64,000 nucleotides of DNA from the NCBI GenBank assembly GCA_964036295.1, contig OZ038472.1, positions 12,830,068 to 12,894,067 on the forward strand, written 5' to 3'. The translations under genes were made by a program, and so were the position numbers. Source of the stretch: Plumapathes pennacea (Eukaryota; Cnidaria; Anthozoa; Antipatharia; Myriopathidae). A model generated the notes under the pieces. It ran no database searches, was not told where the DNA came from, and was given only the letters and a program-made list of their open reading frames with translations. Of the stretch, positions 6,052 to 39,726 are shown piece after piece. Position 1 is the stretch's first letter. Every line of letters begins with the position of its first letter.

Positions 6052-6577
6052 TTAAACTCTATAATATAAAATGTAATAATACCGATATATACTGCCTTAA
6101 ACGGCTATTAGAGCATATATGAGCTCTCCAGCATGCATGTTATTGTCTTACATAGAGGAAGTTATATGGTCAAGAGGAGATACGAGTTGTTGGCCAATGA
6201 TATTATCATAAGTAAGAGATATATCAACACGAGCAGATAAAATTTGTATTTCAAGCGTATTTCTGTTTATGGTATACAGATATCAATAAAACATCCAGAA
6301 CAAAGACAGCCATTAGTTGCCGTCAGACATTCCGTGAACAGTGCTGATATCATTTTTATCTTTCACATGTGAAGACATATCATCAAGCGTCATTAGAACC
6401 GGAGAAATCCTAGTATGTCACTTGAAAACTAAACAAAACACTTAATCCTTTTCTCTTCAATGTGCCTTTTTGGATAAAAAATCTAAGTTGAACAGCCTTC
6501 GACCAACAATACTAAAGGTATGGTACTGGAATCCAGTCACTAAGTGGGCGTTTGACGGTTTATGAGCTCATGTAACC

Positions 6578-14776: not shown

Positions 14777-14992
14777 GTTGCACTTCTGGCGAATTTGATC
14801 GACAGGTCATGTTACAGCTTGTTTACAGGTCACAAACGGTCTACCGAAAAGTCAACACACCCAGCTGCACGGAAATACGTTATCAAATAAGAAGACTCGT
14901 GCATTTGGGTGTGTTGACCCTTCGGTAGACCGTTTGTGACCTGCAAGCAAAATATTATACGACCTGTCAATCAAACTCGCCAAAAGTGTAAC
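14777..14992. mobile_element. Inverted-repeat element shared by both units (copy A)
   Basis: The ends GTTGCACTTCTGGCGAATTT and the complement of AAACTCGCCAAAAGTGTAAC form about 32-bp TIRs. A long internal hairpin (CACAAACGGTCTACCGAA and its complement) fills the middle. The same element occurs at 26105-26320, so it predates the segmental duplication. Confidence 0.75.
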
Positions 14993-15483
14993 TACTTGCG
15001 CCTAATGTTTATTTGTGCTGCACAGTTGTTGTTGTTATTGTTGTTTACTTACCACATAACTCCATAAGCCTTCGTCTGACACCATAGGGGATGTCTCGCA
15101 TGTTCATTGACTCGTAAAGCAAAGGACCTGAGTGACGCAGTCGATAAGTGAAGACCATAAGCGGATGGAATATCCGTTACCAACAAGAATTTGTCAAAAA
15201 GTTATTCTTAGATAGGGCCCGGTCGCACCAGGAAGTTTAGTCGATAATAACTCAGTATCGCAAGCAATACGACGGCTTCTTTAATGTTTGGTAGCAACTT
15301 GATGACACATATTTCTGGTGACAAGCGCTGTTTTCACTTTAAATGATGCAGATGTTGATATTACTGCCGTTCAAGTTACGAGTGCGACCGAAGCCATATG
15401 CTGAAGACGCCTGCATGGCACGCTTTGCAACGAAATACAACGAAACGTTCTTGTGTATGTCTAAATATTGTGGTAAAAAAACT

Positions 15484-15615
15484 AATTTCCACTGGTTTGC
15501 CGTGGTGTAGACTCTTATTTCGGCGAAGCACCTCGTGAGTCCACAACATTTTCACCATGTGATGACGTAAATCGTGTTAAATAACAGTCAACACCACGGC
15601 AAACCAGTGGAAATT
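15484..15615. mobile_element. Short MITE in the death-domain gene intron (copy A)
   Basis: 132 bp, bounded by AATTTCCACTGGTTTGCCGT and its complement. It is also present at about 26802-26934 in unit B, so it predates the duplication. It sits 28 bp from the 15643 splice donor. Confidence 0.7.
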
Positions 15616-15975
15616 TGTTGAGCATGTCACTAAATTCCATACCTGTTGTTCCTTCAGGCAGAATCTTTCTCATCTCTTCAACAACATCCTTTCGATTGTT
15701 AGACTTCAGAAGTCGCGAAAGCTCCCGAATGCGGAGTTTTTCACCATGGCGCAGAAGTTCCCGCGTGGAACCCTTGCCCTCGCATTCAAGTTTCTTTTGT
15801 AGTTCGGCAATGAACGCTCCAGAGTCTCCGCCCTCATCAACCTTCGTGGCAATGTACCCGCCGCATGGATAAAAAAAGTTTCAGTCACGACAGTCGGAGT
15901 GCAACGTCACAGATTTCCCGTAGGGCGTTTGCAGATGACTGTGGCGAGTCTCCAGTTTAATAATTTAAACATTAA

Positions 15976-17310: not shown

Positions 17311-17900
17311 GAGTCCTGGTGTTGACTTTCTTGGCTAATTCTCGAGGTTATATGATTACTGAACTACAAAATCTGTACTTAAATCCACAGTCAGTGCGAT
17401 GACCGCTGACTCAAAAATCAGCTGACCGCACGGTTATAATACGTAATCTCGCGGCGTTCGATAGCAAAAGGGTTTTAGCTGTAAATTCGAGTAATGAGCG
17501 CAAATAATCTGTACTAGAAAAAGAAGCACCATTTCTGTGGTTTATATATATTTCATTCTTTTACGCTGTAAGATAATCACGTTTTAGTAACACCTATAAT
17601 AGTCAAGAAGCGTAAGGGAAGATGTTAGCGTTTTTGCTCGCCTTCCTGTAGCTCGAAACGTTCGTTATCATTGCAAAATAGGAGTTTGATAGTAATATTC
17701 GTCCTCCTGTTTCTTGGAGAGTTTTGTGAATTATCTTTTGGCGTTACAGTGAAAGATGGCTGACATCAAGATCTTCAAGGAAGTGTTGAAAAATTCTCAA
17801 TTGCAAATAAGTTGTCTGCTTCGAAAATTGTTTCGGTTTACCGTGATCATTACTCAGGTTTACAGCGGAAATCCTCTTAAAATGTTTGTGGTGTTTCACC

Positions 17901-20900
17901 TCACTCCTTTGCTGCGGCCAGAGACTGCCTCATCTCTGGTGTTCCCAGAAGTTTCTCCAGCTTGGCCGTCAGAATCTCAACTTTCCTGGTAAGATGGCAG
18001 TTTTCCTCAGATGTTTGACTTTTTTGTAGTTTTTTCTTGAGGTAGCGAAATACCAGCATCTGGACTGTGTATTGGCGCTGCGGAGAAGAGAGAAAGAGTG
18101 CTCAAAATGTAGATTCTTCCAATCTTTCACGAAGAGAGTTTATAAGTGATATCGTAAGTAATGACAGTTTAGGCGGTTTTTATTTAATCTGAGCAAGCTC
18201 TCAAAAACTGAGCTTTCTATACCGTATGATATATCTATAGAGTGAGAAACTGAAGAAAGTTGATCAGTGAAAGGGTCAAGGGAAACGAAAATAAAATGTA
18301 TGTGTTCACACTACCTATTAAGGTGGATCGGAGCAGAGATAAATTATTACAATGAAGTACAAAAAGGGAAATGAAGACGAGAAGCAAATGAATGGAAAGA
18401 ACGAAAGGACGGGAATACTACGCGGAGCAAACAGCTCACGCCGGTATAAAACTAGACCAGAAAGTGGCTGAACGGAGTTGAAGTCTGCGCTCCACAGAGA
18501 ATCCCTATACATACCACTGTTTCGTAGTCAGAGTTTGCATCATCGCCCGCACTGTCAGTCGTGTCCTGCGAAACGGTACGTCAATACGAGAGTTAATAAA
18601 TTCGCTAAAACTATAGTTTAAAGATGTTGGTGCGCAAAGAGCTATGGTATTAGGTATCCTGCCACATTCTCCCCTTCCCTCCCCCCACAGGTCGAGATAC
18701 AAAACAAATTCAATGTAGTTTTAGTACCTTGCAACAGCATTTGTGGAAGCATTGGAAAAGTTGCAGTATCAACTCAAGCAAATTCAGTGGCGGTGGCAAC
18801 ACTGTTCCTCTGTAGTCCAGATATTCCAGCCACATCTGGGTCCTGGCAAATGGCCACTCAGCGTTCTGGTTGGTCTTGGGGAGGTAAAAAACATGAAAAT
18901 ATTTCTACTGAGCTGATATATTATATGCCCAAACAAAAAGTTATCCTTGTCACACGGCGGCCATGTTGGATTGACGTCATAGTTTGTAACACGAAAAACG
19001 ATGTGGGGCGCAGAGCATGCGCGAAAGTGAACTCTGTTGTGTTTCTTTATGTAAAAATGTCATGAAAAACATAAAAGACCTCGTAACTTTCACAGTTGTT
19101 AATCAAAGCAGCAAGGCAGCTGTAAGCTCGCAAATTTGTAAAAGGACTTCATTTTGCGGAAGTAGCTATTTAATAGAACTGGCTCAATTCACCACTTCGT
19201 GGTGAACGCGGGCTTAAAAAAGTGTTATATAATAATTGAGAGAAAAGATTTATCGACGCGGTTTTCACGGGTCACGCGATCGCAGCACCCTTCAAAATAA
19301 CAGATTGTACCTTTCTGACTCTAGAACTAAAAAGACCTGAAATAGTCCAGATGCCAATTTTGGATTGTCTAGGCTTCATTTTGGCGAAGCAGGGGCAATT
19401 TGTTTTTTGGAGATTTGATAAGAGTTTGTATGCGGCCGCCATGTTAGTCGAACTCGGAACACAAAATGAAGTTGATCTGTGACTCAGCTTGATGTTTAGT
19501 TACTTCACATCTTTCGCAGTTCTAACTTTAAAATGTTGCGTGAAGGACCGATTTTAGTCGGCCGCGCGCGTGTACACGGCTTTGTTGTCACGGTATTCAA
19601 ACGTCCATAGCTCCCGATAGATATTTTGTATCGACTCAGAATTTTGCTTTAAGTCTTAAGGCATGATAGTCCTGAACATATCAGTGTATTAGACTTATAG
19701 GATACGTTACTTTTGAGATGGCTTTTTATGACGTGACATGCAAACCAAGAATTGAAACACCTGATAATTTGCATACTGTATGAACTTGTAAACATTCACC
19801 GGAAATGGATATTTTTGGCCGAGATTCAATATCTTTCCGGCCTAGTATCTTCTAAGCCGTATTTACTGTCACTACAGAAATTTTGGCGGATACTAAACCA
19901 ACGGCTTCAGATTTGTTTGCGATAACGCCATCGGTGCCACTGATTGTTTGACCTTCATGGCACCGCGCCAAACGGTCACAATAACAACGCAAAACACAGT
20001 AGAGTGAAACACAACCAAGCTCAGAATCAATGGCCAAACAAACTTCGAACGCATGACAAAACTTCAAAATGAGAACACGTTCCGAACAAAAATATGGTCG
20101 CAACAACTACGACAACATCTTGCTTTTAAACTGCGTGGTTCGACACACCCTGTTGCGCGCCTTCATCATGCCCAAATTTGGAAAACCGCAACTGCTTTAT
20201 TTGGAAATCCATTGTTGACAACAGAGGGAATAGGGAAGCAGGGAAGTAGGGAAGTAGGGAAGTAGGGAGGTAGGGAAGTAGGGAAGGAAAGTGATTACTA
20301 TACCTCGCAAATCCCACAAAGTGGAATTCGCGAGCTAAAAATGACAGAAAGTTAGTAAAATCAAGTTCGTGCGCAAAAAATGTTGCGCACAAACGCGCAA
20401 TGTCATTACTTTAAGGATTGTTTTGACTCGGACTAAGTTTCCATAAAACGCCCTTATCGTTATTTAAAATATGATTCAATATTTAATGTAACCCGACAGA
20501 AATATGGGTTTTAATAAAAAGATAGTGTTGTCCTAATAGATTACGTGTAACGCCTTCATTTTTCAGTTCAGTTCTCCAGAGTGTTCAAAGCTCGGTTAAG
20601 GTAACACAGCTGCAGGTTGACAAATTCTTTCCCAACATGTTTTTGGTCCAAAAATAAAACTTTTGTTCCAGCTCAAAATAAAGCAAGAAATTGAAAGCGA
20701 AAGCATGTCATTTTGACAAAAATGTTTAGACCTAACCCAAGATTCTGAACATCTGGTATCCGAAACACGTTTTCGAGTCATAATAACCTTGCACCATCAT
20801 TATAAAAAGAAAATTGCAATAAAACTGCACTTACATGAATTGTGTCGAAGGTCTTTGTCATGATGGCTATCAGCATATTGATCGCAATGATAACGGCGAG

Positions 20901-23900
20901 TATTGTGTACGCAATTACCATAACCCTGCCAACATCTTGAACAACACGGTAGTCTGGTGTGTCTGCTTCGAATTCTCTCATGTCGATCGATCCCATGATC
21001 AACCAAAATAGATTCTCCATAGTGGGAAGAAACCTGCACGATGAAAGAAGCAGAGGTTCTCATTGACATTATGCCACAAACAACAGCACGTAAATCAATC
21101 TTTAGCAGAGCTGCGGCCATACTGCGATCATGAAGTTCAATACCCCGAAATTCTTAAACCAGTTTTAGAATATTGCTTTAGAACTAAGTAAGTACCTTAT
21201 TGGTTTAATTTTGCAAAAATGATAAAGGCAAATTTCGCGAGACTTAGAGTGCGTTCGATTGACCGTATCCCGGAATAGGAATAGCTAAAATGATCCAAAG
21301 TTTTGTTTGTTCTGGGGAAAAATGTTTTTCGGGATTGTTTTCAAAAACTTCACGCTGACATTTCGAACAGCTCCCGATACATCTCGACATAATTAAGCTC
21401 CAAAGAAAAACATTTTATCAATCGGTATCGCTACTCCTATTCCAGAATAGACCCAATCGAACGCGCCATTAAATTTCGCGATCTGGCACAAAAATCGTGT
21501 AAAAGGAACAAAATTTCGCGATGCTTTATGCACGATCATATCTTAAACGAGCTGCTTTATTAGCTCTTAGGTGACTCGTGTAGAAATAAAGGATTGATTT
21601 ATTGATTGATCCGCATAATAGAATCGGCACTACATATTCAATTTTTACATAGCCATATTTTGGAATAATAGTGGCAAAAACCATGCATAACAACAAAACT
21701 AAACAGGTTAGATTTACATGCTTATTAATGCCCAGAGTCCAGAGTTCTTATAGTATGGATGCTGCCCGTTTCATTTGAGTAACGTTTTAGATTTTATATC
21801 AACAGGGTTTTAAATTTCACGTCGTTAATTCTTTTTTGCAATCGCGAACATTAAGCCCTGAGATAATATTAAGTCTATACCAACATTTAGGTACTTACTC
21901 GCCCAGTCGATGGCTTGTTTTGCTGGCAGTGCCATGGTAGGAGTACAGCTTTCGCAATCCTGTGGCGAACGATATGAACAGGAAAAAGAACAAGATGGCG
22001 AAATAGAACAAGTCTTCCAACATGTTCATCAGCGACACCTCCAGAGTCCCAAGCCTGCGGTGCGCTCTCAGTATGCGAGTTATGCGAAGGAAGCACATCA
22101 CGCTGGCAATGCTGTAGCAAATGTCAGCATTTTGGAACAATTGGTCGGCAGGATTCCATGAGTCATTGTTCTCTTTCCACGCAATGATCCAAAGGATGAA
22201 GGACGCTAAAAAGATCATTGAAGTAGAGGCACAAAGGGCTAGGTGGTACCCGGACGTATAGCTCTCTGACGTTGTATTGGGCTTACACTGCTTTTTCGCA
22301 CAACAGTCGAAAAACAGGAAGAACTTTGTAATGACTTCGGCAAAATGCCCCACTACAAAGACGAGGATGCAAGAATCTGAAAGAAATAGGAACGTTATAA
22401 GGGAATATGCAACTGTTGTTGGATCGAGAGGACATTAAATTGCCAAATGCGAAAGTTTCTAATTCCTGCTGGTTTGGCTGGCATAAATTGAAACATATTT
22501 GGTGCTTACATTTGCTGCAAGAGCCCTTGGCTCATCGAGGGAGCCCTCATATATACTTCTTTTATACAATCACTGGATGTTTAATGGATACTTACATAAA
22601 TTTGAGTTTCCATGGATGGACTTAATATCGAACTGGTTTTTAAAGGCTGACGCAAATACCATGGACAAAAAGACCGCATAGAAGATGGTGTGATTGATGA
22701 ACTTGTAGTACGGATGCTGAACCCTGTCCATGGTGGAGCGACATCCTGTTGGCTTGCAATGATTACAGGAGAACAGCCGCAGGAGAGAGAAAAATGTAAA
22801 AACAATAAAATAGACAGAGAACGCTAAAGCGTGAAACAAAGCCGACAAGGCACACCATATGATGAATCCAATGGGATGCCTTTTCAATGTCGAGAAGCAG
22901 TAGTTGAACTTTGAGAATCCCTCATCACAACTGCTGCCAGAGCTGTGCTCCGAGGGATTGTGCTCTGGAGCTTCAATTATCATGCGGAGGACATGCTGGC
23001 ACTTGGGGTTGGCTACAAACTGTAAACGTCAACAAACACATTCACACAATAGTTAAAAATAGAAATACAACCGACAACTTCAAAGAGTGGGAAGGAAACA
23101 GTATATTTTGGGAGAACGAGAACAAAGGAAGTCCCATCGAGTAGGAAGGAATCTAAAAAGATTCAGCGCTAATTCGTAGCTGGTCATAACCTTAGTTTTC
23201 CTATGACAAAATATGAGATATGAGCTTGAAAGAGATTGCAACTAAATATTTATACAGGAACAACTGGTTTAGCATACATATAGCTAGGGTAAGTTTAAAA
23301 TGCAGAGTCCTGTCTGATAGATCTCTATAGAATATCGCGAAATCCAGGCTCCTCTTCGGAGTTTTCAAGCTTACCGTTTTCAATCCCATCGCTGCAGCGT
23401 TCTTTAAGACTGTCACACTGTTCAAGTACTGCTCTTCCTCGGCCCTTTGCATCTTGAGCTTATCTTGTAGACCAACTGTAAGGGCACCTTTGCCATTGGT
23501 GTCCATGACAATTGCTAGCTCCTCTTCGCTTCGTACTTCCTCGACAAGATCAGCTGCTAATTGTTGCAGGTCTGCAGACAGTTCTTCATATTCGACTCTG
23601 AATCGATAGTCATCTGCAGCCGTCTTTTTGTGTTTACTGCTGAGTCGAAGAATGTCCGTGATAACATCACTCTTCTTCGCACACTTCTCCGTCCCTTGCA
23701 TTTCTAAATGGAACGTAGTTTTGTCTGCTGGTGAGCTGCCATTCCCTCCCTCGATTGGCGGAGGTTTCGGGGATGCTTCCCCACAAAAAGAAACCAGCGA
23801 AGACAGCCATTCGAGAATAACAAAATACGGCTTCGCGCGGTACTTCTCCAAATCCAAACGTCTTAAAGCTGCTTCGAACTCACGAGCTCCGTTGCTCTTC

Positions 23901-24310
23901 GTTTCATTGGGCTTCTCCGCCACAAAGCGCTCCAAACTTTCCATGAAGTCGTTGTCATGAGTCATGTCGATGGCCAACCTCGCAACGTCGACGTCTTCAA
24001 ATGGCTTTGAAGATCTTTCGAAGACATCTGGACATTTTTGGGATGGCTGTGAGGGTCTCGTCGAGACATCAAGACAACAGTTGTTATTCTCGGTCGAGGT
24101 GTCCTCAGTCAAACCTTTGGGCTCTTGCAACGCTTCTAGACAATCTTTGTTTAAGGCCATGCTGGCGGAAAGGAACTCTTGCAAGAGGGATGTAATGTCG
24201 GGGTCAGACTTCCGTTTGATTGCATCTTTCAAAGAGGATTTCAATTCAGGCAGTCTTTCACGGACATCTACAGAAGAGATAGCCACGCCTTCGATGCTTG
24301 ACGACGCCAT
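17901..24310 (-). CDS. TRPC-like cation channel without ankyrin repeats (gene B)
   Basis: A complete seven-exon paralogue of gene A: 23375-24310, 22596-23019, 21899-22376, 20835-21033, 18728-18874, 18515-18565 and 17901-18077 (2412 nt, 803 aa). Exon sizes equal those of gene A, except for one extra codon in the S2-S3 exon (DCCAKKQC versus NCAKKQC) and a last exon seven codons shorter. The features are the same: a novel N-terminus, the linker VEYEELSADLQQLAADLVEE, KHPYYKFINH (here preceded by RVQ), the pore MENLFWLIMG, S6 INMLIAIMTKTFDTIH, the TRP box EWPFARTQMW, and a C-terminal coiled coil (LVFRYLKKKLQKSQ). The frame is open 23 codons upstream of ATG 24310, but gene A shows a stop there and conservation starts at MASSSIE. 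It lies directly upstream of gene A on the same strand. Intron 4 carries a 1.2-kb insertion absent from gene A. Confidence 0.85.
19102..20335. mobile_element. 1.2-kb insertion in gene B intron 4
   Basis: Flanking intron sequence is collinear with gene A (GACCTCGTAACTTTCACAG on the left and GCGCAAAAAATGTTGCGCAC on the right), but this block is absent from gene A. TAA is present at both junctions. It contains a (GGGAAGTA)n minisatellite at about 20228-20285 and no recognisable protein. The ends share only AGCTCGC in inverted orientation, so the element class is unknown. Confidence 0.65.
21247..21467. mobile_element. MITE in gene B intron 3 (same family as 4563-4788)
   Basis: The left end GAGTGCGTTCGATTGACCGT and the complement of the right end match, both containing CCGGAATAGGAATAG-type cores. 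TTA is found next to each end. Confidence 0.75.
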
Positions 24311-25726
24311 GATAGAAAGCTCTTCAAGGCGATAACAGAAGAAAAAATGCCCAACTTCGAAACTGCTCGTCACACTCAAGTTGCAGTAAGCAATTCAAAA
24401 TTCTTGGAATTGAGCGTCTGACGGTTTACGCAGAAAGATGAAAAGATAATCCTAATTTCAAAAGGTCAGATGAAGTTCGTGAAGTAACCCACATTCACGG
24501 CATAATCCACAATTAAGACTGTGTATATAAGGTCTGCCAATTCTTTAACAAAAGTTGCTTAGTTACAATATTCCAGAATACAAATTATTCATATTCATAT
24601 TTTTTGTGCCACAACATTTGATTTCATTATCAATTGCGTGACAGCTGCGCCAGGCAATGTCGCTTCATGTCACTTTGTGGACAAAGCTGCACTTCAATTA
24701 CGACAGTGACGTACATTCATGCAGTTTCCAGTGCACACCGAACTAACCAATGGCGGCCGTATAGCCCAACAGAAGTACAACGGTTTCAAATTGCGTGATC
24801 AAATCATTCTACCGTGAACGAAATACGAAAGTTGTTTAACACTTCCCGACATGCATGAACTCCTGTATATTAAAGCCAGACAACACGAGAATAATTTAGA
24901 GCGAATCAAAATCTTTCACGTTCAAGCCATTAGATTGAATACTGGCCGATGACGATATTTGGACCAATAGACACTGTGTTGATTGTGGATATTTAAATAT
25001 ATTAAAACAGTGTAAAAAGAAAGATTTCATTTTATTGCACGGAGACCAGGTCTCTACCTAGCTCTAGCGTTCACAGTTTGCGTAACAGCGTACAGCATTG
25101 TAAAGATCATTCACTCTGTAAAGCATTTCAAATTTGAGAAGAACGTATCAGACTTGTCAGAGATGTAAGTCTTCAAAACATCCTGACTCCCTCCTGGGGC
25201 CCTATCAGCCGATCAAACGTTCAATTTTCGTTTCTAATACGAAAAGCCCAGAGGGATCAGATACAACGGCCTCCAAACCTCCCCTACAGCCGTCCCTTTC
25301 CACCGGCTTTATCTCAGTTACTAAGACATTACATTTAACTCTATCTTACATCAACAAAAACAAATTTTCGGGCTCAAACGATAACTAAGATCCGTTAACA
25401 ATCCGATCAGGAGTGTTATATGAAAAAGAATACATGTATCTGGTTCATTCAGTCATGCCGTGCACTGAGTACATTCATCATGTACTCTAGATCAAATGTG
25501 AAACGTGGGGTGATACAGCACCTCTCGGAAAAAACCATTGGTCGGCAAAACAATACGTTAAACAACCAAAGAAGATCCATAACCCTAAAACTAATGGAGC
25601 TGCTATGCAGTTACACTGTACGTACACATGTAGGAAACCTATAAAAGATAGGCTTCCGAGTTCCTCGGTTTGGGGCTCAGACCAGCATTTGTTATGGAGA
25701 GCCTGTTTTACAGCAGATTACTTAAA

Positions 25727-28700
25727 TCACATAATGTCTGCTATGTGGTGGTACTCAAGCTTTAACAAGATATCATACAAACGTTTGACGGTACTGTTCG
25801 ATTTCACCTCCCAGTGTCTTAACACTTCATCAGCAGGATTTTTTTCTCGGGAGTCCAAATATCGCACTTGCGAAGGGTCAACATTTAGGTGTTCCGCCAA
25901 AAATTTCCAGCGGTCCCCATCTGGTTTAGAAATAAAAAATTAATAGAAGTAAACAGTATCTTCATACAACAGTTTACTGACGACAAAAAAAATCAACTAT
26001 TTCCTTTCTGTGGAATACTTGAACACAAGACCAATGGCCGACTTAAACCGCAAACATTTAGGTCTTAATTCTCGCAAGCTGGCCCGAAAACAATTATCTT
26101 GGGCGTTACACTTCTGGCGAATTTGATCGACAGGTCATGTTACAGCTTGTTTACAGGTCACAAACGGTCTACCGAAAAGTCAACACACCCAGCTGCACGG
26201 AAATACGTTATCAAATAAGAAGACTCGTGCATTTGGGTGTGTTGACCCTTCGGTAGACCGTTTGTGACCTGCAAACAAAATATTATACGACCTGTCAATC
26301 AAACTCGCCAAAAGTGTAACTACTTGCGCCTAATGTTTATTTGTGCTGCACAGTTGTTAGTTGTTTACTTACCACATAACTCCATAGTAAGCCTTCGTCT
26401 GACACCATAGGGGATGTCTCGCACGTTCATTGACTCGTAAAGCAAAGGACCTGAGTGACGCAGTCGATAAGTGAAGACCATAAGCGGATGGAATATCCGT
26501 TACCAACATGAATTTGTCAAAAAGTTATTCTTAGGTATGCTGAAGACGCCAGCATGGCAAGCTTTGCAACGAAATACAACGAAACTTTCTTGTGTATTTC
26601 TAAATATTGTGGTAAAAAAAATAAAAAAATAAAAAAAGGAGAGAAAAAAATTACCACAATTCACTAGTTTCTCGTTCTCTGATTGGTCGATTAACCGTGG
26701 TAAATAAAAGTCCAGACAACGATGTGACGCCAGCACGGCACGCTTTGCAACGAAATACAACGAAACTTTCTTGTGTATTTCTAAATATTGTGGTAAAAAA
26801 CTAATTACCACTGGTTTGCCGTGGTGTGGACTCTTATTTCGGCGAAGCACCTCGTGAGTCCACAACATTTTCACCATGTGATGACGTAAATCGTGTTAAA
26901 TAACAATCAGCACCACGGCAAACCAGTGGAAATTTTTTGAGCATGTCACTAAATTCCATACCTGTTGTTCCTTCAGGCAGAATCTTTCTCATCTCTTCAA
27001 CAACATCCTTTTGATTGTTAGACTTCAGAAGTCGCGAAAGCTCCCGAATGCGGAGATTTTCACCATGGAGCAGAAGTTCCCGCGCGGAACCCTTCCCCTC
27101 GCATCCAAGTTTCTTTTGTAGTTCGGCAATGAACGCTCCAGAGCCTCCGTCTCGCTCCAGACCCGCATCAATCTTCGTGGCAATGTTCAACCTTTTCTGT
27201 GGTTCCAAATCCCCGAGGAACTGAGGTATAGTTGAGTCAGAGACAACTGAAAATAAAACAATATTAGCCAAAAATATTGTAAAAAGAAAGTTTTCGACGA
27301 CAATTGATGTTGGTCTTGGATAATCGCAACTTTTTTTCCAATCAATTTACTGTATAGGGGAATGGGTACGCTAATGAGTCGATCGACTTTGTAAGAGAAC
27401 GAACAATATGTCAGGTTGGTTGGTGAATGAAAAACTGAATGGGTGGTGATCGAAGTCGAAAGTGTCCATAGAGGCTGCTTTTACTGAAAACCGATATCAT
27501 GCATTGCACTACGTGTAATAACGAAAGTATGAGTTACAACAACTCTATTTTAGACTTCAAGGTACACATGTAAGTTTTGGACAAATACAGGTGTATTGTA
27601 TAGTGGTGATAAGTGGTCAGATCTGACGCAAAGGTGGAGTTTGTGATCTTTATTACAGACAACAAGCGCAGGTGTTGTACAGACTTGATGTGCGTTACTA
27701 TTAAGAAACACTACGGTAGGTTAATTTTGTATATTCATCCAGGCATATATTAACATGAAATTGAAATTATAAATTACATTTTTTTTTTTTTTTACATAAT
27801 AAACTGCGTTATTAGTACGTTAGTTTGTTATTGTCGTGTGAACAAGAGGTTAAATTGAAAATAAACATGCACTGGAAACACCACTATCTTTAGTCAGAGG
27901 TCTTATTTATTGTTTCAAGACTAAAACTGTAACAAATGCTGTAATCTGACATGCGGTGATTGCAGCGAGAATCGTTCACAAAGCCTGGTCTTCACTAGCG
28001 CATAAGCATAAGCATAAGCATAAGCATAAGCATAAGAATAAGAGAGCGACAGTGGCGACATAAGCATAAACATAGGAACGGACGTGTTTGATCCTTAAGC
28101 CACGGTTAAAGGCTGTATAAACCGATGCCAACCATGTTCTAACAATACAATTTAACCTTTGCCTTATGCAAGTTTGCGGAGTCCGTCTAAACTTCATTTT
28201 AACAATAAGTTACGCTTTATTTTAAAAATCGGCCGTTGTCTGTTTCAGAAGGAAGCCAAACTGCGCGATTGCATTAAAATGAACATTTCGCTCTTGGCCT
28301 CGTTTCAAAACAGAAACAATAGGCGTCAGGCATGGCCTATTCAAAGGACAAACAGCTGATAAAACGTGGTTGTAGTCTGAGTATAAGAAGGAAACTGCAA
28401 TTAAATTAACACACACTTTAAATTTGGGCAATTAGCTTGAAATTTGGCATCAAGTCTTGATGTCGAAGGTCTACCTGCACGAGGCATGTTTGGGTAAACA
28501 GTGACCGATATGATAGTGTGACGTGACATGGCATGGTGAAAATTGATATTACAATGAGGGAATGAAATTTCCACACTTGTCGTTCAATATTGTGTGTATT
28601 TTTCGTTGTTCCTCAATACAACTTTGGATAACTGATATATCTCTTTGACTTGCTATCAAAATCGAATGCGTAGAATACCGGTGTCGAGTGACAAAAAATC

Positions 28701-29047
28701 CACCTCAGCTAACTTACTAAATGTTCTTCATTCGCGACATTCAAACCACTTGGGTCATTTGGAAGATCATTCTTCATCAGAAAACATATACAGTGTACAG
28801 ATTTCATGGATATATCGCACGCCATGTATAAAAACCTTCTAAGAAATGATTTGTTAAAAGATACTAAGACATTGTCAAACTTGCCTCTAAGCTCTACGAT
28901 TTCATTTTTTGTCTCTTTCACCTCTGACTCCAAGATTTCTATTCGCATATCATTATCCGCAGAACGCAAGCCGGTTCCTCGAGCCTCCTGGAGATCCACT
29001 TGATCCAAGTTTGCGGCCAATTGTTCCACAGATGGGAGCTTTTTAGG
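25727..29047 (-). CDS. Coiled-coil, death-fold and death-domain protein (unit B), 5' end not found
   Basis: Exons 28885-29047, 26962-27246, 26373-26450 and 25727-25920 join in phase (720 nt, 239 codons plus TGA 25727-25729). The first exon encodes a charged helix likely to coil (IEILESEVKETKNEIVELR). The second encodes about 95 residues of a helical domain (FLGDLEPQKRL... RELSRLLKSNNQKDVVEEM), possibly DED-like. The last two give YGVRRRL, then the death domain (GDRWKFLAEHL... LRHWEVKSNSTVKRLYDILL). Death-fold domains make homotypic contacts in apoptotic and innate-immune complexes. The donor at 28885 is the rarer GC type (AGAG|GCAAGT). No start codon is found for this model. The chain may continue upstream, even into the CARD gene, but that gene's last identified exon ends in phase 1 and this one begins in phase 0, so at least one more exon would be needed. 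Confidence 0.7.
26105..26320. mobile_element. Inverted-repeat element shared by both units (copy B)
   Basis: Orthologous to 14777-14992 and almost identical, lying in the last intron of the unit B death-domain gene. Its presence in both units dates it before the duplication. Confidence 0.75.
26544..26801. repeat. 77-bp direct repeat specific to unit B
   Basis: GACGCCAGCAYGGCAMGCTT and the following about 60 bp occur at about 26544-26620 and again at about 26725-26801, with A-rich sequence between them. Unit A has a single copy near 15405-15480. Confidence 0.75.
27247..28884. other. Intron of the unit B death-domain gene
   Basis: No exon is recognised inside. It contains poly-T (27780-27795), a (CATAAG)n array at about 28001-28045, and otherwise unique A+T-rich sequence. 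Confidence 0.5.
28001..28045. repeat. (CATAAG)n microsatellite
   Basis: Seven near-perfect hexamer repeats, with degenerate copies following to about 28075. Confidence 0.95.
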
Positions 29048-30539
29048 CTCATCGGGTAAGACAAAAAATGAAAATAAAATAAAATAAAATAATAAAATAA
29101 TAAAATAAAAAATGAAGAAAATGAGAAAAGAAAAGACAAAGAGAAAGAGAAAAAAGAAAAAAATTTGGGCGAATAAGCCGCGGTCTTTGCTTCTGTCAAC
29201 GGATTCTTCGCCGTTGACCCAGGTCTGGCTGTTGTGCCTTTTTTGCGCCAGCATTGTTCGTCGTGCGCTTTATGGTCAGTTCCGGGAATCTGCTACGGTG
29301 TTCACGGAAGTTCTGAATCCAATGGAAGCTTCCTGGTCGATGTGCTTGAGTCAATTCCGTCGATGTCTATAACCTTCCAGGCAATGGGTCTTCAAATTCA
29401 GAGACTGATAAAAGCCAATCTATTGTATGCAACTGTTTGTAAAGGAGCTTTCGCTCGTCTTTCTAACTTAGAAACAACATGAGCGCGTCTTCAGTTGTCA
29501 CACCCAAAGCAACGCACCAATCGCTGAATCAAGGTCAAGCCCTTCGATTTAGCGGACGAAGAGAAAATGACTGTGAGAGATGTATAGTAGCGTGTTTGAA
29601 TGTTCGTAAGCTAAAACATGAACCATACAATATAGACTGTCGTAAATATTTTACGAAAGTCTGGCTTATCTTTATGCCGCAGAATTTCCGCGTCTTGGAC
29701 GTGCAGTCTTCCTTTGGGATTTGTCCGGCCTCGAAGCTTGGAGCATCAACTGAATTTTTAGTGTGAAAGTTGCGCGTCTTATGTCATGTATCCTAATGCC
29801 ACATTTTCATTGGACGATGGTAGTGCATGATAACCACTCAGAAAGCAGCATGGCTAATCGAACAAAGAATTCGCAGCATTTCCGTGGTATGGGGAACAAC
29901 AAGACACCACAAGACGTCACGCGGTGAAATTTTGCCAACGGTTTCACAAAATATCTTGAAAAAGTCACCAGCAAACACGCGTGTTTCGTATATTCTTGAA
30001 GACCCTTAAAGTTGTATGCAGTGGAGGAAAACACAACTACATGTATATTGGATACATGTCGACAAATTCTAAGAGGAAGTCGCTCAAATGCAGATAGAGT
30101 AAAAAAGTGTAACGTATGCTCTTCAGCTGGAGGTATCATAAATTATGGTGCTCTTTATATATATAAAGCCTCTCGAGATATTGAATTATTTGTTGTTCTC
30201 GCACAGGTAACAGTCAGTCTAGCAAAAATAGGACGTGATGGGTAGAAGAGTGACTTGTATAAAATAAACTATATAATGATGGTTATATAGTGCATTTTAA
30301 TCTATGCAGTATTTCAATAAGGCTTGTGTAATATTCCTGGTATTATTGCACATACTATAGGTAAAAAATATAACATAGATGTATAAACTGAACATGGTGC
30401 TTTTCCCTTCTCAGTATTTTATGTTTAATTCTATTCAGTGCATGTGCATTTTATCTACAGTATGTGTTTGCAATTTTGTGGCTGTTCAATGGCTGTTTTT
30501 CAAAGGCTGTTTTAAATGGAAAACGCCCCTGAAGGGGAT
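29048..30539. other. Unassigned stretch between death-fold genes
   Basis: No gene is recognised with confidence. An open plus-strand frame of about 100 codons (29177-29482, ending FARLSNLETT) has no family I recognise and no clear splice context. The 3' exon or exons of the CARD-DD gene should lie on the minus strand here or further downstream, but none was identified. Confidence 0.4.

Positions 30540-30573
<34 letters not shown>
30540..30573. repeat. Poly-G run (34 bp)
   Basis: An uninterrupted G tract 12 bp before the left boundary of the 1343-bp tandem duplication. It may mark a rearrangement or an assembly-prone site. Confidence 0.95.
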
Positions 30574-30574
<1 letters not shown>

Positions 30575-30584
30575 GGGTGCATAC

Positions 30585-33270
30585 TCATCATAGTTTTTGG
30601 GTGGGAGTGTGCCACCTGGTCTTGAAAACCCATACCCTATTTATACAAAAATTTCTGATTTTCTATACCCCATTTCAGACCTGACTCCAAAATGCATATC
30701 CTATTTCAGATCTAACCTCAAAATGTGTACCCTATTTCAGAGATTTTTTTTTTCTGTTCCAACAATTTCCACCTGGTGTTTTCTTCCATTTGCCTGCAAT
30801 GTTTGCGGCAACACATTTCTGTTAAAATCGTATCTTATCCCAGACCAAAAAGCCAAAATCAATACCCTATTTCAAACTAAAAATGCTTGAAAACGATACC
30901 CTTTGGGGCAACACATATCTTTATGGTTTATTTATGGGGTACCCCTTGGGAAAACGCCTCAGACGTGAAAGGGTTAAAGTGGGCAATTCCCCCACTGTTT
31001 TATCAAACTGGTCCCAAAATTGTACACACATCGGCCCACATAATACAGAACACTGTCTTGGTTGGAAAAGTAAATAGAAAATCCAAATCTCACCTCTACA
31101 TCCTAGACCTGCCATCTTACTTGTCACATTCTCTACTCCTCTGTCAACATCATCCAGATGCAGTCCCAGGTCTTTCTCCAGTTGTAGGTAACAGTCCCCT
31201 CTGCCAGCTTTCTTGGTTGCATCCAACAACTTTTGCAGTGTGGCCTCGTGTGCTGAAATCTGACACCAAGACTTAATGACGAGCGACGTTGGACTGCTGT
31301 CCTGTGACTCAATGGCACTTTCTTTACCCTGTGGGAGGTTTAACTCTTTGTATAGCCTGTATGAAATAAAGTAAATATTAACACTTAACTATGATACTAT
31401 GTATGTTCTGATTGGCTAAAAGAATAATTTTTTTAAATTAAGTACAAAGACACGGTTTTGTGAAACACATTTAGTTATTTTATAAAATCAATAAATGTGA
31501 TACGTGTTTCAATGTCTGTGTAACTTGGGATACTGAGACACTCAAAAAAGTTCAAAATCACTTGCCAAAGTGGCTCATGACAGTCACAGGGACATGTCAT
31601 CTTGTTTGACAGGACCTATATCACTTACGTCCTCCAGCCATGCCCAAAAAGATCCTCTTTATCCATGCCGTTATGGAAGTTCGTCATAGCCTCAGGATAA
31701 TTCTGTACAACCTCCTGAAGCAAAGTGCTTGCTGATAAAGTTTCATTGTGTTGTATTGGATAACGTAATTCAAATTCACTGTTTGTCGATGCCCTGTCAT
31801 TTGTTCCTGACCCACCTATACAAAACAATGAAGAAAAATTGTTATACCATGATACAAACATACATGGTACAAACTACAAAAATACAGTGGAACTTCCCGT
31901 AAGAGACCACTCTTTGTTTAAATTATACTCATCATAGTTTTGGGTGGGAGTGTGCCACCTGGTCTTGAAAACCCATACCCTATTTATACAAAAATTTCTG
32001 ATTTTCTATACCCCATTTCAGACCTGACTCCAAAATGCATATCCTATTTCAGATCTAACCTCAAAATGTGTACCCTATTTCAGAGATTTTTTTTTTCTGT
32101 TCCAACAATTTCCACCTGGTGTTTTCTTCCATTTGCCTGCAATGTTTGCGGCAACACATTTCTGTTAAAATCGTATCTTATCCCAGACCAAAAAGCCAAA
32201 ATCAATACCCTATTTCAAACTAAAAATGCTTGAAAACGATACCCTTTGGGGCAACACATATCTTTATGGTTTATTTATGGGGTACCCCTTGGGAAAACGC
32301 CTCAGACGTGAAAGGGTTAAAGTGGGCAATTCCCCCACTGTTTTATCAAACTGGTCCCAAAATTGTACACACATCGGCCCACATAATACAGAACACTGTC
32401 TTGGTTGGAAAAGTAAATAGAAAATCCAAATCTCACCTCTACATCCTAGACCTGCCATCTTACTTGTCACATTCTCTACTCCTCTGTCAACATCATCCAG
32501 ATGCAGTCCCAGGTCTTTCTCCAGTTGTAGGTAACAGTCCCCTCTGCCAGCTTTCTTGGTTGCATCCAACAACTTTTGCAGTGTGGCCTCGTGTGCTGAA
32601 ATCTGACACCAAGACTTAATGACGAGCGACGTTGGACTGCCGTCCTGTGACTCAATGGCACTTTCTTTACCCTGTGGGAGGTTTAACTCTTTGTATAGCC
32701 TGTATGAAATAAAGTAAATATTAACACTTAACTATGATACTATGTATGTTCTGATTGGCTAAAAGAATAATTTTTTTAAATTAAGTACAAAGACACGGTT
32801 TTGTGAAACACATTTAGTTATTTTATAAAATCAATAAATGTGATACGTGTTTCAATGTCTGTGTAACTTGGGATACTGAGACACTCAAAAAAGTTCAAAA
32901 TCACTTGCCAAAGTGGCTCATGACAGTCACAGGGACATGTCATCTTGTTTGACAGGACCTATATCACTTACGTCCTCCAGCCATGCCCAAAAAGATCCTC
33001 TTTATCCATGCCGCTATGGAAGTTCGTCATAGCCTCAGGATAATTCTGTACAACCTCCTGAAGCAAAGTGCTTGCTGATAAAGTTTCATTGTGTTGTATT
33101 GGATAACGTAATTCAAATTCACTGTTTGTCGATGCCCTGTCATTTGTTCCTGACCCACCTATACAAAACAATGAAGAAAAATTGTTATACCATGATACAA
33201 ACATACATGGTACAAACTACAAAAATACAGTGGAACTTCCCGTAAGAGACCACTCTTTGTTTAAATTTAA
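30585..33270. repeat. 1343-bp tandem duplication containing two death-domain exons
   Basis: Copy 1 is about 30585-31927 and copy 2 about 31928-33270, in direct orientation. Only a handful of differences were seen (for example GACTGCTGTCC versus GACTGCCGTCC and CCGTTATGG versus CCGCTATGG). Each copy carries one pair of death-domain exons and a repeat-derived intron segment with the motif ACCCTATTTCAGA. Such similarity means either a recent event or an assembly duplicate. Confidence 0.9.
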
Positions 33271-35166
33271 GTGGTCGCTTACAGGAATTTCTCACCATAG
33301 GAGGTCTATGTGATATCCAGTTTTGAGCCAAAACCAGTTTCAAATACTGAAACAGCTTTTTGACTAAATAACAACATAAGAAATCAACCCTACGTCTTGT
33401 TGCGCTTCTTGTACATTCGGTTACATTAGTGGTTTTGGTTTTCAACAGTTATCAAAAATCATGCTATAGGAATGGAGCAAACCTGATTGCCAAGGCTTCA
33501 TCCCAGCATCTTTTATGAGAGGATTTGCAAACTCTGGCTGAATCTGTTCCAGTACTCGGACAAAACTTTCAAATGCTGTGGGTCCCTTCCTTGGCAAGAC
33601 ATCTAACAGGAGTTTATTAACTTTTTCTGATGTACTTTCCATCTCCGATATTTGACCTCTTTCCTCCTCATCAAGACAAAAACTCAGAAGCGGCAGAATT
33701 TTGTCCAAGTTCATGCTACGTAGTAAAGAAGTGTTTTCTTTGAGAATCCTCCTGTGATCTTCAGACATTCCATGATGATCTGGTCAAAATGAAAGACATG
33801 CAGATGATAAAATAAAGCCTCCACCTTCCCACGACAGCCAGCTCTATGAAATGACCACAAAATTTTGTCTCAACCGCCAGTCCCCACAATGGCCACCTTT
33901 ATAGTACAGCAGCATCCAACACTATATTCTCCCAAATTTAAAAATGCACTTAAAATATCCTCTATACAACAGCCACTCAGCAAATCATTAACTAAATTTT
34001 TTGCCAGTTACATGTACTGAACTTGGTTTGTGGTTCAGGTTTCTATTAAATATTAACTGTAAATTAATATTGGTATATAGAAAACATTTAAAATGCCCTG
34101 AAATTTGAATGAAAGTCAGTCCAACTTCTCCACAACAGCCACACCTCTGCACAAGGACCACAAAATTTGTCCCAACAGAGGCCGTTGTGTTAAATTCGAC
34201 TGTATACACAAACCTGTATGAGTCCGGGTTTTGTCACCAATTCAATTTGAGTATGCACTTTTCACCTCAAAAGGTAATCACTCCTCAGAAGTCAACATCA
34301 GGAATTATACATATCAGTTGACTTGAGCTTTTAAGATTTCTTTGCATAAATTATGTTCTTTTGTTTGAGCAATAAGGATTGCTGCTTTGGCATTTTGTTA
34401 AGTAAATGTGCAGTAATTTGAGTACAAGAAGTTACATTTGCCTGTCATCAATAATATTATTTTGTACATCCAAAAATCTACTCCATCATGCATACGTGGG
34501 GTAGTGATTAGTTACAAAAAAGTATAAGCAAGCCACTTTAGTTCGACAAGGTTTTGCTGTGGACTGCAGGCTTCACAGATACACTCCACTGGCTAAAAAT
34601 ATCCATGTTTGAGGGCATGGTTACACTCAGGGGATCCAGTACTGTATATACTAACTTTATAGGCAATAATGAACCACTATATACTTAAGGTATTCTTTTT
34701 TTCCAGAAATGTAAAATTGTGGATATTGTAAACTATGATTGTATGATCATGAAACAAAATGATACTTAGCTGTGCCAATCGATCTCGATTTATTGTATAC
34801 AACCGTTTGTGCACTAATTGTACAGACATATTTTCCTATTTACAAACTATTGGACTTACGGCTTGGTTCTTCGGCAAGCTGTAGCCCTGATTCTTCTAAC
34901 AAAAGATCTCCCAGATGCTTCTGCTTGGTCATCAGAGCGCGAACGAAACGTTCGAACGCTTTGGGTCCCTTCCTTGGAAGCAAATCCAACAACTTCTCTG
35001 CTTTCTCAGAACGCGTTGGACACACCTTTACTTCGTCCCTGTCGTCATTGTCTAGGATCTCACCTAACAGGTTTAAGATCCTCAAGGGTTCAAGATCTTT
35101 AACAAGCGTCACACGGTGCTTTTGTAGCAATTTTCGATGCTCTTCCTTCATTCCCACGTCCGCCAT
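31094..35166 (-). CDS. CARD-CARD-DD-DD death-fold protein, 3' end not found
   Basis: Exons 34860-35166 (ATG 35166), 33483-33779, 32972-33158, 32437-32699, 31629-31815 and 31094-31356 give 1504 nt, about 501 codons, in one frame. Exon 1 encodes a CARD (MKEEHRKLLQKHRVTLVKDL to DLLPRKGPKAFERFVRAL), and exon 2 a second CARD (EDHRRILKENTSLLRSMNLD to LLDVLPRKGPTAFESFVRVL). Exons 3-4 and 5-6 each encode a linker plus a death domain (FGHGWRTLYKELNL... IKSWCQISAHEATLQKLLDA). CARD and DD modules make homotypic contacts in caspase, NF-kB and inflammasome-type complexes. Each DD exon pair is phase 1-1 and 450 nt, so it repeats in frame. The last exon ends in phase 1 and its partner is unknown. Exon 2 could also be a first exon, since it has its own ATG at 33768. 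Confidence 0.75.
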
Positions 35167-35435
35167 CTTGGCGGACTCGAAACCCCAAAGGACAGAGGGA
35201 AGCGAATTCCCACGTAAGGATGGTTACCCCCTCCCGCAGTCTGATTATATTATGTCAGCGGTCGCCCCACTGTATTAATAACTAACCAAACGTGAAGCAG
35301 CGGTAGTTTTCGCGTTGTTATGGTTTCTTTCTAGTTGCCGTTTTCTGTGTTCATGTTAGGTAGCATCGCTCCAAAATGTAAATAAAAAAAGGATGATTTG
35401 TGAATGACTCGTTACCAGCTTCCCCCAGAGGTTCA

Positions 35436-35632
35436 CACCCCTCGGGGGAATGGGGACCAGCAACCTTAAGCCCCTTGGGGGAATGGGGACCAGCAACCCT
35501 CAGACCCTTGGGGGAATGGGGACCAGCAACCTCTGGCTCCTTAGGAGAATGGGGACCAGCAACCTGAGACCTTTGGGGGAATGGGGACCAGCAACTTCAG
35601 ACCCTTGGGGGAATGGGGACCAGCACCTCAGA
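35436..35632. repeat. 32-33-bp minisatellite, six units, copy 1
   Basis: The unit core AATGGGGACCAGCA followed by a variable ACCTYAGACCCTTGGGGG segment. It lies between the CARD first exon and the divergent ORF. Confidence 0.95.
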
Positions 35633-36052
35633 ACTGTCAAGTGTCAAGTGTCAACTGTCAATGTTCTCGAGGCAAAATATGCAAAATCTACTATTTCAGA
35701 CCAAAAAGGCAAAATTGATCCCCTTTTGCAGCCTCAAAAATGTTAAGAAACGATACCGCCTCAAAATCGTACCAACGGGAAGGACAGCCGCGCAAAACTG
35801 AAAACGAGTTTAGACCCGATCGCCTCACGACCGAGAATCGGACGATGTCGGTAAATCCAAGATGGCTCTCTTCTATGGGGCGTTTTTCGCGTCAAAATTC
35901 AAACAAGCAATCCTTCAGTTCAATCATTCAATCCTTCAACTCGCGCGGGCAGCCTCAAGCCCGTGACTGTACTGACAGTAAAATCGCGACACGAGAAGAG
36001 TTATATACACCGATTTTATTTTTCGCAGCTATTTCTCCGGGAAAATGTAAGC

Positions 36053-36409
36053 ATGGCGACAGCTGAAGAAGGATCCGAGGTGACTGCGAGAGAGCATCTG
36101 GCGGTGCGAACTCGTGCCTTGATACAGGACATCACCAGGAGGATAGAAGAAGGAGGTGAAATAAGTTCAGACACTCGGGATTTTCTGGTCTATCAGTCTG
36201 ACATGTTGTACCAACATGTTGTTCGGCTTTGTTCCTGCCGTACTTCTTCGAATGGTTCCACGAATGACCCCTATGTAGAAATGGCGAGGAAACTGATGGA
36301 AGTTTCATCAATAGAAGTGCACAGCCTGGAAACCTCTTCCAGGAGTTCTCGACATTTCTCTAGAGACATTGTTTCGGCTGGAAGTGCGGAAAATAATTGC
36401 CAATATTAA
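36053..36409 (+). CDS. Small hypothetical ORF divergent from the CARD gene (copy 1)
   Basis: 118 codons from ATG 36053 (context AAGCATGGCG), starting MATAEEGSEVTAREHLAVRT. I recognise no family. The segment ALIQDITRRIEEGGEISSDT reads as amphipathic helix, and there is no signal peptide or membrane segment. It is transcribed away from the CARD exon, 886 bp off, with a minisatellite between them. Compared with copy 2, a 2-base indel after residue 82 (ARKLME) puts the two copies in different frames, so at least one C-terminus is not ancestral. It could be the first exon of a longer gene or non-coding. Confidence 0.35.
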   Translation: MATAEEGSEVTAREHLAVRTRALIQDITRRIEEGGEISSDTRDFLVYQSDMLYQHVVRLCSCRTSSNGSTNDPYVEMARKLMEVSSIEVHSLETSSRSSRHFSRDIVSAGSAENNCQY

Positions 36410-37404
36410 CACCAAATGCCTTTGTTCGATTGCACAATGACTACTCCGTCTCTGAATTTTTTCACTTTATCAAATCATATATAATATAATAAACATAATA
36501 TTAAGTCAGGTCTAAAAAAGATAGTGAAGAACAAACAGAATTTCTTACAGCAACTAGAGGAATGCTTACCTTTTCCCGGATAAATAGCTTCGAAAAATAA
36601 GCTCGGTGTAACTCTTCTCGTGTAGGGACTTTACCGCCAGTGCAGTCACGGACTTGAGGCTGGCCGCGCTAGTCCCAGGCTCAGACCAACCAATGAGCGA
36701 TGACAGAGACGACGAAGGATGGCGAAATAGTTGTGTAAAATTCGACTGTATACACAAACCTGTATGAGTCCGGGTTTTGTCACCAATTCAATTTGAGTAT
36801 GCACTTTTCACCTCAAAAGGTAATCACTCCTCAGAAGTCAACATCAGGAATTATACATATCAGTTGACTTGAGCTTTTAAGATTTCTTTGTATAAATTAT
36901 GTTCTTTTGTTTGAGCGATAAGGATTGCTGCTTTGGCATTTTGTTAAGTAAATGTGCAGTAATTTGAGTACAAGAAGTTACATTTGCCTGTCATCAATAA
37001 TATTATTTTGTACATCCAAAAATCTACTCCATCATGCATACGTGGGGTAGTGATTAGTTACAAAAAGTATAAGCAAGCCACTTTAGTTCGACAAAGTTTT
37101 GCTGTGGACTGCAGGCTTCACAGATACACTCCACTGGCTAAAAATATCCATGTTTGAGGGCATGGTTACACTCAGGGGAGCCAGTACTGTATATACTAAC
37201 TTTATAGGCAATAATGAACCACTATATACTTAAGGTATTCTTTTTTTCCAGAAATGTAAAATTGTGGATATTGTAAACTATGATTGTATGATCATGAAAC
37301 AAAATGATACTTAGCTGTGCCAATCGATCTCGATTTATTGTATACAACCGTTTGTGCACTAATTGTACAGACATATTTTCCTATTTACAAACTATTGGAC
37401 TTAC

Positions 37405-37711
37405 GGCTTGGTTCTTCGGCAAGCTGTAGCCCTGATTCTTCTAACAAAAGATCTCCCAGATGCTTCTGCTTGGTCATCAGAGTGCGAACGAAACGTTCGA
37501 ACGCTTTGGGTCCCTTCCTTGGAAGCAAATCCAACAACTTCTCTGCTTTCTCAGAACGCGTTAGACACACCTTTACTTCGTCCCTGTCGTCATTGTCTAG
37601 GATCTCACCTAACAGGTTTAAGATCCTCAAGGGTTCAAGATCTTTAACAAGCGTCACACGGTGCTTTTGTAGCAATTTTCGATGCTCTTCCTTCATTCCC
37701 ACGTCCGCCAT
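37405..37711 (-). CDS. Second copy of the CARD first exon
   Basis: Duplicate of 34860-35166, with ATG at 37711 and donor at 37405. It encodes a full CARD with two noted replacements (CLTRSEK, RTLMTK). Its phase-1 donor is compatible with the acceptors of both 33779 and 33158, so it could serve as an alternative first exon or add another CARD by exon inclusion. It may otherwise be a stranded duplicate. Confidence 0.55.
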
Positions 37712-37980
37712 CTTGGCGGACTCGAAACCCCAAAGGACAGAGGGAAGCGAATTCCCACGTAAGGATGGTTACCCCCTCCCGCAGTCTGATTATATTATGT
37801 CAGCGGTCGCCCCACTGTATTAATAACTAACCAAACGTGAAGCAGCGGTAGTTTTCGCGTTGTTATGGTTTCTTTCTAGTTGCCGTTTTCTGTGTTCATG
37901 TTAGGTAGCATCGCTCCAAAATGTAAATAAAAAAAGGATGATTTGTGAATGACTCGTTACCAGCTTCCCCCAGAGGTTCA

Positions 37981-38177
37981 CACCCCTCGGGGGAATGGGG
38001 ACCAGCAACCTTAAGCCCCTTGGGGGAATGGGGACCAGCAACCCTCAGACCCTTGGGGGAATGGGGACCAGCAACCTCTGGCTCCTTAGGAGAATGGGGA
38101 CCAGCAACCTGAGACCTTTGGGGGAATGGGGACCAGCAACTTCAGACCCTTGGGGGAATGGGGACCAGCACCTCAGA
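37981..38177. repeat. 32-33-bp minisatellite, six units, copy 2
   Basis: Identical in unit order to 35436-35632, including the variant unit with CTCCTTAGGAG, showing that the array was copied as a block and has not diverged in repeat number. Confidence 0.95.
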
Positions 38178-38597
38178 ACTGTCAAGTGTCAAGTGTCAAC
38201 TGTCAATGTTCTCGAGGCAAAATATGCAAAATCTACTATTTCAGACCAAAAAGGCAAAATTGATCCCCTTTTGCAGCCTCAAAAATGTTAAGAAACGATA
38301 CCGCCTCAAAATCGTACCAACGGGAAGGACAGCCGCGCAAAACTGAAAACGAGTTTAGACCCGATCGCCTCACGACCGAGAATCGGACGATGTCGGTAAA
38401 TCCAAGATGGCTCTCTTCTATGGCGCGTTTTTCGTGTCAAAATTCAAACAAGCAATCCTTCAGTTCAATCATTCAATCCTTCAACTCGCGCGGGCAGCCT
38501 CAAGCCCGTGACTGTACTGACAGTAAAATCGCGACACGAGAAGAGTTATATACACCGATTTTATTTTTCGCAGCTATTTCTCCGGGAAAATGTAAGC

Positions 38598-38909
38598 ATG
38601 GCGACAGCTGAAGAAGGATCCGAGGTGACTGCGAGAGAGCATCTGGCGGTGCGAACTCGTGCCTTGATACAGGACATCACCAGGAGGATAGAAGAAGGAG
38701 GTGAAATAAGTTCAGACACTCGGGATTTTCTGGTCTATCAGTCTGACATGTTGTACCAACATGTTGTTCGGCTTTGTTCCTGCCGTACTTCTTCGAATGG
38801 CTCCACGAATGACCCATATGTAGAAATGGCGAGGAAACTGATGGAATGTCTCATCAATAGAAGTGCACAGCCTGGAAACCTCTTCCAGGAGTTCTCGACA
38901 TTTCTCTAG
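38598..38909 (+). CDS. Small hypothetical ORF divergent from the CARD exon (copy 2)
   Basis: Duplicate of the ORF at 36053. It is identical for about 82 residues, then ends ARKLMECLINRSAQPGNLF and stops at 38909 because of a 2-base insertion relative to copy 1. Function unknown. Confidence 0.35.
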   Translation: MATAEEGSEVTAREHLAVRTRALIQDITRRIEEGGEISSDTRDFLVYQSDMLYQHVVRLCSCRTSSNGSTNDPYVEMARKLMECLINRSAQPGNLFQEFSTFL

Positions 38910-39726
38910 AGACATTGTTTCGGCTGGAAGTGCGGAAAATAATTGCCAATATTAACACCAAATGCCTTTGTTCGATTGCACAATGACTACTCCGTCTCTG
39001 AATTTTTTCACTTTATCAAATCATATATAATATAATAAACATAATATTAAGTCAGGTCTAAAAAAGATAATGAAGAACAAACAGAATTTCTTACAGCAAC
39101 TAGAGGAATGCTTACCTTTTCCCGGATAAATAGCTTCGAAAAATAAACTCGGTGTAACTCTTCTCGTGTAGCGACTTTACCGCCAGTGCAGTCACGGACT
39201 TGAGGCTGGCCGCGCTAGTCCCAGGCTCAGACGAACCAATGAGCGATGACAGAGACGACGAAGGATGGCGAAATAGACAAACGATAGCGAAATAGACAAA
39301 AGATTGAAAGTTTGAGTTCAAGTTATTTCACTCTGTCCTTCCCGTTGGTACGACACGGAAGGGGAGGTGTAGAAGGGGGGCTGGAACCTAATTTGGAAAT
39401 TGTGCCATGATATGACGTCACCCACTATAAACTTTTATTTTGAAGCAACGCACATAAGGGCAAAATATTTCATGCCAATGTGACTTCTGGTAATTGATTG
39501 GCTCGTGTTGGCCAATGCGTATTCTTTTCTTCCTCCTGTGCATCATGTTTGCATCATTTCCATACATTGCCGCTGAGTAACTAACATGGCATGGCAGGCT
39601 CATTTAAATTTCTGGTCCCGCGATCGATTGGCAAGCAGACTTTCACCTAAGTCGTCCTCAGGCTTCCACCGAAATTATTTCCAAAATGGTGGACGTTCAT
39701 GGTAGTTCATAGGAATGTAAATAATT

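Follow-up and report, generated by a model that had tools for sequence, protein, structure and literature searches.

The window, a 64-kb stretch of DNA on contig C11 of the genome searched, carries on its minus strand a predicted adaptor-like gene, of the cell-death or immunity type, in which exons for CARDs are followed by exons for death domains (DDs). A first CARD exon with a start codon occurs in two copies, the proximal one at 34860-35166 (307 nt, with a phase-1 donor; PF00619 in the joined frame) and the distal one at 37405-37711 (PF00619, E 7.7e-15), and a second CARD exon lies at 33483-33779 (297 nt, phase 1-1; PF00619, E 1.8e-9). Two pairs of predicted DD exons come next: exons A and B of the 5' pair at 32972-33158 (187 nt) and 32437-32699 (263 nt; PF00531 in the joined frame), and those of the 3' pair at 31629-31815 (187 nt) and 31094-31356 (263 nt; PF00531). 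All of the predicted exons have GT-AG ends, and the splice sites are the same in both DD pairs. Each pair totals 450 nt (187 + 263), its outer introns being of phase 1 and its inner intron of phase 2. The original prediction had proposed that a DD exon pair was tandemly duplicated in frame, and this is borne out: the copies are spaced by 1343 bp, both are open, and the phase-1 borders make each pair a symmetric (phase 1-1) unit that keeps the frame. Abutting copies, introns of equal phase and open frames in both copies are the marks of a symmetric exon-unit tandem duplication, and the DD unit shows all of them. The predicted CARD-CARD-DD-DD order also stands insofar as two CARD exons and both DD pairs share one frame, but the product probably continues to a third DD.

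Both kinds of domain score above the curated cut-offs of Pfam. Both CARD exons match CARD (PF00619), the first with 55.1 and the second with 37.9 bits against a cut-off of 23.9, and the DD pair matches Death (PF00531) with 33.3 bits against a cut-off of 22.6 (E 5.3e-8). Since the Death match spans residues 52-123 of 150, predicted exon A supplies mostly linker and the start of the domain. The DD fold has six helices; a single-sequence AlphaFold2 model of exon B alone has two, at low confidence (mean pLDDT 46.1). Against solved chains, the first CARD matches the RAIDD CARD with E 1.2e-3, just behind CARD9 and NOD1, and RIG-I (as DDX58) is also among its matches. For the DD, RAIDD is absent from the six matches to solved chains at E up to 1, and the best match named as a DD is NRADD (E 0.48).

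Beyond the duplicated pairs, the phase-1 frame runs on through three further predicted exons on the minus strand: exon X (26962-27246; 285 nt, phase 1-1), which has no Pfam family above the cut-off and is a probable continuation of the same gene; exon Y (26373-26450; 78 nt, phase 1-1), which starts the last DD; and exon Z (25729-25920; PF00531), which completes that DD and has a stop codon at its end. Part of X together with Y and Z matches PF00531 with E 5e-11, and the joined predicted frame of 686 aa holds two PF00619 and three PF00531 stretches, so that the product is likely to be CARD-CARD-DD-DD-X-DD. It is possible, if somewhat doubtful, that the gene instead ends after the duplicated pairs with X, Y and Z being exons of a different one. 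An intron of 3847 nt would then precede X, and it holds an open exon-like stretch, and a strong acceptor at 30528 would lead to five residues and a stop, with further acceptors present. On the other hand, X begins at an acceptor and lacks an early ATG, and the phase-1 donor that it requires upstream is available in exon B. Both X and Y are of phase 1-1, and Z closes with a DD and its stop codon. The exon-like stretch itself (28717-29060, minus strand) lies open in phase 0-0 behind a long pyrimidine run; its phase does not suit the neighboring exons, and as a gene end it was rejected because phase 0 is incompatible with exon B. In the genome search it matched itself alone, and it gave no Pfam match above the cut-off.

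In a self-comparison of the window, the DD exon pairs fall within a direct head-to-tail repeat with a spacing of 1343, whose two units abut: a left copy at 30581-31924 (1344 nt; the 3' copy in the sense of the gene) and a right copy at 31925-33267 (1343 nt; the 5' copy). The repeat had been placed at 31094-33158, bounds set by the final base of exon B in the left copy and the initial base of exon A in the right one; a repeat does occupy that span, but the real one is wider, at 30581-33267. The copies are 99.78% identical and, as had been anticipated, nearly indistinguishable at the DNA level, their alignment showing two mismatches and one gap column. The gap is an intronic T at 30594/31938, within a T run, and could be a sequencing error. 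Both substitutions are exonic, with T in the left copy and C in the right on the plus strand, and both alter the protein: 31298 T/32641 C (Ser/Gly) and 31671 T/33014 C (Asn/Ser). The DD pair copies thus differ at two of 150 residues, one of them inside the Pfam Death stretch. With 450 of the 1343 bases of the unit in exons, two of two substitutions would be exonic with a chance of 0.11, and no selection is therefore claimed. A 1.3-kb repeat at 99.8% identity is far beyond chance, and its divergence of 0.15% (95% range 0.02-0.54%) agrees with the proposal of a very recent event, two substitutions in 1343 bp being few, while gene conversion could also keep the copies alike.

Taken together, these features point to a real and recent 1343-bp tandem duplication that copied a complete two-exon DD module in a CARD-CARD-DD adaptor-like gene, a reading to which a probability of roughly three in four can be given. 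That the duplication of the DNA itself is real appears highly probable. Both DD pairs would be carried in the transcript, giving the CARD-CARD-DD-DD chain. A duplication without effect on the protein, with one pair skipped or with transcripts that stop in the intron after the first pair, is unlikely. The introns after both B exons contain AATAAA (at 30932, and near 32275 in the other copy), and early polyadenylation there could yield transcripts with a single DD; against this, both pairs keep the frame and share their splice sites, which on a home-made scale score 12.0 and 11.2 as acceptors and 7.0 and 9.7 as donors.

It is improbable that the repeat is an artefact of assembly, in which two haplotypes or error-bearing reads were laid end to end and the genome has one DD unit. 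False duplications, including those of neighboring exons, are known from several assemblies, their typical signs being a gap between the copies, half depth and discordant reads (PMC9516828), and at the left end of the present repeat is a poly-G tract, difficult sequence of the kind where a contig might break off. Yet the gap typical of such cases is absent between the copies: the junction at 31924/31925 has neither an N nor a shared base, and no N occurs in the window or in 199,080 bases of 48 loci. A junction without a shared base would be hard to obtain by overlap joining, which argues that contigs were not joined in this way. As two alleles, the copies would show two or fewer differences with P about 1.5e-4 at a heterozygosity of 1% and 0.04 at 0.5%, although at 0.3% this would be unsurprising (P about 0.23). 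Adjacent near-identical tandem copies are good substrates for gene conversion, and an older duplication kept alike in this way, for which the 0.15% would date the last conversion and not the duplication, is slightly less probable again; substitutions are denser in a second tandem duplication of the same gene (16 in 2546 nt; of the 18 in all, two or fewer would fall in the 1343-bp unit with P 0.026), which allows for different ages or for conversion in the DD unit, but identity here reaches the edges of the unit, near which the copies differ only in the T run, 13 nt in from the left.

The breakpoints of the preferred duplication offer a hint as to its origin. A pure G tract of 34 nt (30540-30573, plus strand) is followed by TGGGTGC (30574-30580), which puts the left breakpoint at a distance of 7 nt from the pure tract and 3 nt from the GGG after it; the right breakpoint has no comparable G-tract feature. 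The left breakpoint also coincides with the edge of a dispersed repeat (30582-30947), for which a first look found 2419 candidates genome-wide. All 40 of those scored matched, including the two copies here, and several of the 23 other copies inspected have G or C runs at one end. In 124,000 sampled bases, comprising the window and six random 10-kb stretches, 201 positions are no more than 10 nt from the edge of a G/C tract of at least 14 (0.16%, with the present tract included), giving a chance of such proximity of about 0.3% when both breakpoints are considered. The event may have started with a break or a stalled fork at the poly-G tract of the dispersed element, after which one end would have been lengthened by 1343 bp of copied sequence before end joining without homology; in other words, break repair or template switching at the tract may be responsible. 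Work on C. elegans mutants found that G-rich motifs cause breaks and that helq-1 mutants acquire tandem duplications of about 0.1-10 kb (median near 1 kb); failed synthesis-dependent repair together with end joining is the explanation given there (PMC8654963). Counter to such an origin, the junctions of the helq-1 duplications are rich in microhomology (PMC8654963), and dog-1 worms are reported to show deletions, not duplications, at G tracts (PMC4369104). The second tandem duplication of the same gene has no G tract at its ends. The proposed trigger is post hoc and concerns one event, and is perhaps best regarded as a candidate. A further scenario, in which the change in DD copy number is still spreading, chromosomes with one and two DD units co-exist in the species, the poly-G of the mobile element drives repeated gain and loss, and adaptor valency differs among individuals, would be an unlikely extension of it.

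Symmetric (phase 1-1) exon duplication is a source of domain gain in animals, since the copies stay in frame; relative to known cases, what is special here is the youth of the event and its poly-G edge only. The case is probably a young and clear example of a well-known kind of event, in-frame domain duplication, and not a new kind of system. Death-fold proteins of other animals provide several points of comparison. In tandem-CARD proteins such as RIG-I and NOD2, the two successive death-fold domains act together as a docking platform, and tandem CARDs in other proteins raise local concentration and help to seed death-fold assemblies. The predicted protein resembles RIG-I and NOD2 (for NOD2, PMC3314614) in having two successive death-fold domains, but the domain duplicated here is the DD, and its copies differ at only those two residues. 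Like RAIDD/CRADD, the CARD-DD adaptor of the PIDDosome (PMC2705503), it has CARD followed by DD and no Pfam enzyme domain; unlike RAIDD/CRADD, with one CARD and one DD, it is predicted to have two CARDs and two or three DDs. The predicted protein is not classed as RAIDD; CARD9 and NOD1 score slightly above RAIDD for the first CARD, and the DD lacks a RAIDD match at E up to 1. Invertebrate Apaf-1 homologues also have tandem CARDs and tandem DDs, in print as paired CARDs or as “double death domain repeats” (PMC2246300). Those proteins carry NB-ARC, whereas the joined frame here gave no Pfam match to NB-ARC at E up to 1, and the near identity of the DD copies in the present gene marks its event as fresh. 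Other novel death-fold combinations are described in amphioxus (PMC2575513). Neither CARD-CARD-DD nor the exact architecture predicted here was met among the papers listed by text searches of an open-access library.

As for function, two DDs that differ at a single residue of the Pfam stretch, with a long linker between them, would provide two equal docking sites. Such paired DDs may raise local concentration and help to seed death-fold assemblies, and, by analogy with tandem CARDs, two DDs could favor multivalent assembly, with recruitment of CARD partners left to the CARDs. As a rule, domain gain has to be inferred from ancient comparisons; this pair of copies has exact breakpoints and a plausible trigger. 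Differing at two coding sites, the copies would permit a direct test of whether an extra DD shifts assembly thresholds, and would also let one ask whether selection sees such gains at once. For the wider field, it adds a further case from a genome with many CARD and DD matches, one whose split genes, CARDs and DDs point to an animal.

That richness is evident across the 290,015,204 bases and 24 contigs searched, in which at least 150 DD matches were found; none of 14 control genomes gave matches in the Death family search. At four places examined, picked from the list of DD matches, DD exons lie 1.0-1.8 kb apart. At one of them (C7:1221000-1227200), four DD exons are spread across about 4.8 kb, with repeats there at 85-94% DNA identity; by eye, these exons are entered in phase 1 and left in phase 0, hence they are no proof of in-frame DD chains and are perhaps alternative last exons. 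Each of the other three places has a pair of DD exons: two of these pairs are spaced by 1.0 kb, with 25/68 and 26/66 residues identical between the neighbors, and the third by 1.3 kb, with 21/69. Judged by the number of DD matches and by the close spacing of DD exons at these four places, the gain of a DD is nothing unusual for this genome. Seven CARD matches lie on one strand of another contig (C4:15411756-15492908), about 12-16 kb apart, in what resembles a tandem gene array. Repeats are also present in the random sample of six 10-kb stretches, which is too small to give a duplication rate. For example, one stretch holds about four copies of a 1292-bp unit at about 98.5% together with a shorter array, another holds a satellite of about 170 bp over about 8 kb, and two (L054 and L057) hold repeats 1.3-7 kb apart at 85-94%.

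Finally, the self-comparison of the window revealed two more tandem duplications near the DD repeat. The second has a left unit at 34184-36729 and a right unit at 36730-39275 (2546 bp, 99.3% identity; its 16 substitutions are accompanied by two gap columns) and takes in the first CARD exon and its upstream region. A third CARD arising from this duplication was considered and rejected: among ten AGs near the start of the proximal copy, between 35300 and 35101, just two enter in frame. The first of these, with a score of 0.1, is followed by an in-frame stop, the open frame starting only at 35223; the second, with a score of -13.1, falls within the exon itself. With no usable in-frame acceptor, the duplicated first CARD exon would therefore be an alternative first exon. 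The same duplication (34184-39275) also holds an open frame on the opposite, plus strand (ATG near 36053 and 38598), so that a head-to-head arrangement is doubled; the copies of this plus-strand frame differ by a frame-changing indel near 36302/38847. Both units contain a 33-bp minisatellite (35439-35632 and 37984-38177). An older tandem duplication, 6575-15830 and 17898-27149, has a spacing of about 11-13 kb and pieces that are 85-96% identical. Besides the last DD exons it holds a gene for a channel (Ion_trans, E 6e-11), and its left copy begins inside exon X.
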